Below are positions 4,570 through 28,030 of a stretch of DNA of 39,041 bases, one piece after another. Under the pieces are notes generated by a model. It saw only the letters and a list, made by a program, of their open reading frames with translations, was not told the origin of the DNA and ran no database searches. The stretch covers positions 1 to 39,041 of the forward strand of contig QCQN01000008.1 of assembly GCA_003212175.1 (NCBI GenBank), read 5' to 3'. Position numbers and translations under genes: made by a program. The DNA comes from Prochlorococcus sp. AG-449-P16 (GTDB lineage Bacteria; Cyanobacteriota; Cyanobacteriia; PCC-6307; Cyanobiaceae). Position 1 is the stretch's first letter, and each line of letters opens with the position of its first letter.

Positions 4570-4957
4570 TTATTTCAGGCTATGTAAATAAGTCAATAAA
4601 TTAGACATTTTTTGAGGATCAATTTCAAAGCTAGGCATGGGGGGGGGTTTTCCCCTCAATTACTTGTTTTATAATTTCTTTATCGTTCAAACGTTCCGTT
4701 ATGGAATGCAAATCCGGTCCCACCAATCCTCTTGCAGTGATCCCATGGCATCCAACACAATTCATTTTAAAAAGTAAATCCCCTTCATTAACTGATCCTC
4801 TTAGTTCGAGAGTTTTAAGAATATAAACATTATTCTCTCTATGACCTAAATAAAAAAATATAAAAAATAACAGGAGTATTAAAAAACCTACAAAAGTTTT
4901 TCTCAGAAGAGTTAAAAATGAATTCTTTTCTGCTGCAGATGATGAAGATGTTGACAC
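4570..4957 (-). CDS. cytM: Cytochrome cM, interrupted by a +1 frameshift in a C9 run
   Basis: CytM is a small membrane-anchored c-type cytochrome of cyanobacteria, implicated in balancing photosynthetic and respiratory electron flow. The start is GTG at 4957. A transmembrane helix spans about residues 21-37 and the heme site CVGCH lies at 67-71. As sequenced, translation runs through EGKTPP, enters a wrong frame and stops at 4631-4633 after 108 residues. The break is at nine consecutive C on the coding strand (4639-4647). With eight C the frame continues as [22 protein letters not shown] and stops at 4570, giving 128 residues and the usual PPMP segment. M107 there would be the axial heme ligand, which the truncated product lacks. 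It diverges from petG over a shared promoter region and precedes the TrmJ-like gene by 3 bases. Confidence 0.85.
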
Positions 4958-27486: not shown

Positions 27487-28030
27487 ATGGTTGATATTAA
27501 TCAAAAAAGCAAATCTATTTACGGTGACTCTAATTCCCCAGAAATTAGTTTAAACAGTAATTTAAAAAGATGGTTTTCAAGAAATATTGGTCTATGGAAA
27601 TCCAATAGGACATATTTTCTTGATGAAAAAATGAAAACTTATAATTTATGCATGTTCATAAAAATAGAAAGTCAAGAGAATAAAAAAGAATGGGAATCAC
27701 ACTATAAATTTTCTTGGTACCCTGAAAAAAAAATATAGTTTTTTTGAAGAAAATCCTAAATATCAAGAAAGAGGGGAAATGAGAGCTTTCATAAAGGGAC
27801 ATCAACTTATTCGAGAGAAATTCTATTTAAGTGATATTGATGGGATATCAAATATAAGACAAGTAGATGAGCATGAGATGATTTTCGAATCCTCATATGA
27901 GGATTGGTATATTCTTGAGCATACGCGACTTGTCTATGATGATAACTATAGATTTAGAGTTATTTATTCATGGAACGGAGACAAACTTCAAATAGTAGAA
28001 AATCATCATGAAACGAAAATTATTACATAA
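27487..28030 (+). CDS. Conserved protein of unknown function, interrupted by a +1 frameshift in an A9 run
   Basis: Two open frames, 27487-27738 and one ending at 28030, are halves of one gene. At nine A (27725-27733) the first frame reads PEKKI and stops at TAG. With eight A it continues PEKKYSFFEENPKYQERGEMRAFIKG to 28030, giving 180 residues. The nine A and the following TATAG are mirrored by seven T, which could form an A/T hairpin at the slip site. The protein is soluble and aromatic-rich: LWKSNRTYFLDEK near 36-48, then SWYPEKK, then FESSYEDWYILEHTRLVYDDNYRFRVIYSW. Alternating strands suggest a small beta-barrel such as the CpcS/CpcT lipocalin-like lyase fold, but I see no firm family match and claim none. 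The second frame alone would need internal initiation at ATG 27779. Confidence 0.7.

Follow-up and report, generated by a model that had tools for sequence, protein, structure and literature searches.

The window, a whole contig of 39,041 nucleotides from Prochlorococcus sp. AG-449-P16, carries a cytM (cytochrome cM-like) gene whose reading frame is broken by a run of nine C, and we believe that this run is probably one base too long through a technical error in homopolymer length. The extra C would have arisen during whole-genome amplification or library PCR, or else at the sequencing or assembly stage of a draft genome of the single-cell type, and the living cell would most likely carry an intact cytM. 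A preliminary description had left open a sequencing or assembly error, a real null and a slippage-switched contingency site. The first of these is the best supported, since a second +1 break lies in the same contig, no break was found in the other DNA that we covered, and the published indel rate for such genomes is of sufficient size.

Cytochrome cM is a short, membrane-anchored class I cytochrome c with a CXXCH motif and a distal Met near the C terminus. As read, the gene in the window has a GTG start and encodes a product that ends in GKTPPHA; just as the preliminary description had it, this product has 108 residues and lacks the PPMP segment. The companion claim, that eight C would give the full protein, was borne out when one C was left out for comparison, which yielded 128 residues plus a stop and an ortholog-like terminus. 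All 92 distinct intact cytM orthologs have the sequence T-P-P-M-P at this site. The truncated product contains CVGCH and matches Pfam cytochrome c domains, while the Met segment is found solely in the other frame. For the truncated product, the match to PF13442 extends over positions 3-45 of 68, versus 3-68 for an intact ortholog. An NCBIfam search gave no match to a cytM-specific model, and the name is based on the preliminary description together with gene order and orthology shared with the other Prochlorococcus copies.

Table 1. Positions of the two interrupted genes and of the associated sequence elements in the window.
Feature	Position	Strand	Basis or remark
cytM (cytochrome cM-like), frame broken	4570-4957	-	Open reading frame as read, 4631-4957; conserved rest to 4570 in another frame
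C9 run, one base above the fit to conserved T-P-P-M-P	4639-4647	-	Run scans and ortholog site comparison
CVGCH heme-binding motif region, intact (coordinates approximate)	4751-4765	-	Sequence and translation
CpeS-like gene, second +1 homopolymer frameshift	27487-28030	+	Proteins of relatives split across frames
A9 run, one base above the fit to conserved WYPEKKY	27725-27733	+	Sequence and translations

The second break affects a CpeS-like gene, in which the proteins of three relatives are split over two frames at 27487-28027. Nine A stand where WYPEKKY fits eight, and a stop comes after the run. The Pfam CpeS match of an intact ortholog is weak (E 0.07, below the cut-off), and constraint on the gene is intact, with a dN/dS of 0.07-0.08. 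In both cytM and the CpeS-like gene a one-base homopolymer change is set in sequence that is otherwise intact and constrained, as a technical error would leave it, and the same assembly offers one further, unrelated gene hit alike. A reference-free search for frame breaks linked to runs flagged 15 places, of which, once the translations had been read, only the CpeS-like gene was judged real; this search is not exhaustive and misses cytM because too little sequence lies 3' of the run. Others among the flagged places were judged by eye to be neighbouring genes, for example tandem crcB-like genes, or a gene that precedes an rdgB-like gene.

To place these breaks in the context of the genome, proteins from ~1.2 Mb of a closed MED4-sized genome (1,657,990 bases) were aligned to ~430 kb of the window genome, covering ~268 kb of coding DNA, of which ~230 kb lies outside the window. 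Exactly two frameshifts were found, the C9 of cytM and the A9 of the CpeS-like gene; both are +1, both fall in a homopolymer read as nine, and both are on the window contig, with none in the ~230 kb of aligned coding DNA outside it. With two frameshifts only in ~268 kb, a generally bad assembly can be ruled out. The breaks amount to 0.75 indel-type events per 100 kb, below the 3.0 indels per 100 kb of the benchmark quoted for a Prochlorococcus single-cell workflow (PMC6122165), so the published rate of about 3 per 100 kb is ample for both. In addition, three short-read platforms that were tested handled homopolymers of eight less reliably (PMC11140927). Two observations nevertheless count against a technical error. 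Among the A/T runs in the covered coding DNA, 28 are nine bases long and 102 are eight, and most long runs of the genome keep their frame, including nearly all of these nines and 11 other coding C runs of seven to eight. Furthermore, finding both breaks on a single contig of 39 kb, and none elsewhere in the covered DNA, represents a mild excess: the window accounts for 13% of the covered coding DNA, so that the chance of a second break there, given one, is ~0.13.

The assembly comprises 46 contigs and is 64% complete. From its fragmentation and completeness we infer that it represents a single amplified genome; that the ninth C is technical is likewise inferred. The indel errors reported for single amplified genomes (PMC6122165) are alike in affecting long homopolymers by one base, in unrelated genes of a fragmented, partial genome; the difference is that in our case the single-cell origin is itself deduced from the state of the assembly.

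The C9 in cytM is the sole G/C run longer than six in the window and the sole C run of at least nine in the 1.06 Mb assembly, which contains 13 C runs of at least seven (eight C7, four C8 and one C9). Among the 12 remaining C runs of seven to eight, 11 lie within open frames that read straight through and the twelfth is part of a tRNA gene; none is out of frame. The earlier view of a C9 as remarkable therefore stands for this assembly but less so for the genus, where 186 of 266 Prochlorococcus genomes contain at least one C9, and, in genomes that are closed or nearly so, several of these runs sit inside long open frames. A C9 run is uncommon but not strange; the unusual part is that this one breaks its frame. 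As a separate observation, eleven other Prochlorococcus genomes (L132, L136, L138, L142, L145, L152, L153, L154, L156, L157 and L158) carry a poly-C tract of 9-16 bases, variable in length and usually followed by poly-A, at about position 1505, in the interval that separates an rpsK-like from an rpoA-like gene (both named by eye). This tract, which is absent from the window genome (L283), may be a genuine hypermutable or regulatory tract.

The extra base could also be real. Replication slippage from eight to nine C in this cell or its close kin would place cytM at the very start of decay, a reading that we consider possible but doubtful. Loss of cytM has precedents in other cyanobacteria: a Synechocystis strain with the gene knocked out is viable and, on glucose, shows faster growth, and a mutation is described in Leptolyngbya dg5 (reviewed in PMC10515406), so that loss of the same gene is tolerated there as it is in four Prochlorococcus genomes. 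Moreover, a one-base homopolymer deletion was selected in a Prochlorococcus MED4 culture (PMC2955971). We matched cytM DNA in 203 of 266 genus genomes and found the intact site pattern in 193. Nine genomes besides the window genome have a match without the intact pattern; in G175 and G131 the gene is cut by contig ends, three further genomes gave no protein match, and four carry real lesions, none of them a homopolymer slip. G023 (L190; closed, 1,704,176 bases) and G182 (L191) have many stops in several frames, G261 (L187) has an internal stop and CIGYH, and G065 (L186) has CVGCR, PPVP and an early stop. In a tree built from the TrmH-like and RsmD-like proteins that flank the gene, each decayed copy groups with intact ones, so that cytM appears to have been lost independently at least four times in Prochlorococcus.

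However, these decayed copies have lost heme ligands and accumulated many scattered lesions, by substitutions and indels, unlike the window copy with its single clean +1 slip and full constraint. The median dN/dS of the window cytM against intact orthologs is 0.18, compared with 0.22 among the intact orthologs and 0.78 for the decayed G065 copy against MED4, and comparison with orthologs revealed no further lesion, whereas an established pseudogene would show both relaxed constraint and more lesions. Even 3' of the C9, we counted 1-2 nonsynonymous and 5-8 synonymous changes relative to L005, L006, L010 and L009, and 5.5 and 7.5, respectively, relative to the more distant L028. The part of cytM that is cut off is therefore constrained and has not long been free to drift, so any real break must be very young. 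A null is thus possible if it is very recent, with four decayed genomes as precedent, but there is no relaxation around the run, and the CpeS-like gene, which is unrelated, is broken alike in the same contig. In the tree of flanking proteins the window genome forms a long branch beside a MED4-like clade, without a close relative; we found no second genome of its species, the nearest cytM copy being 79% DNA-identical, and a pattern scan of viral contigs found no viral copy.

The orthologs also bear on two readings in which a real ninth C would leave cytM at least partly functional. If a +1 ribosomal shift (CCC then C) or transcriptional slippage restored some full-length protein, the gene would be leaky, which we regard as very unlikely. 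This genome does encode a tRNA-Pro with anticodon GGG, and there are bacterial and phage precedents for a +1 shift at CCC codons (PMC5009743), but we found no shift-promoting sequence beyond the run, and no ortholog uses such a shift. Indeed, 109 other cytM loci, drawn from two collections that have some genomes in common, show a longest C run of 2-7 at the site, and of 2-5 in nearly all, with no frame break at this site in any of them. Seven C occur at just two loci, L027 and L056 (54,524 bases each), which are identical there and which we took as one contig of strain MIT 9302. The comparison of run length among Prochlorococcus orthologs that the preliminary description had called for therefore shows a tract that is not conserved. 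Less likely again is a contingency site, at which slippage of the C tract would reversibly toggle cytM within the population. A long C tract within a coding frame, one base away from being in frame, is what such a site would present, and in the poly-G/C phase-variable genes of Neisseria and Campylobacter the length of a long C tract likewise sets the coding frame. Those tracts, however, recur across strains and are seen in both states, whereas here there is one genome, one length and no conservation; among the 109 other loci the tract neither recurs nor forms an on/off pair, and no further C tract of the window genome disrupts a frame. In addition, the A9 break in the CpeS-like gene suggests that both breaks share a technical or mutational cause. 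For these reasons the proposed slippage switch finds no support and we set it aside. Its broader form, in which a deep-branching Prochlorococcus lineage would use slippage at eight- or nine-base homopolymers to toggle both cytM and the CpeS-like gene reversibly, is the most improbable reading that we considered, although, if true, it would mean that a free-living ocean cyanobacterium has a contingency system.

We therefore return to a technical one-base error as the probable origin of the ninth C. The case cautions against taking a single homopolymer in a single draft genome as evidence of gene loss or phase variation. At the same time, the decayed copies suggest that cytM is dispensable in some Prochlorococcus lineages, though it is kept by most.
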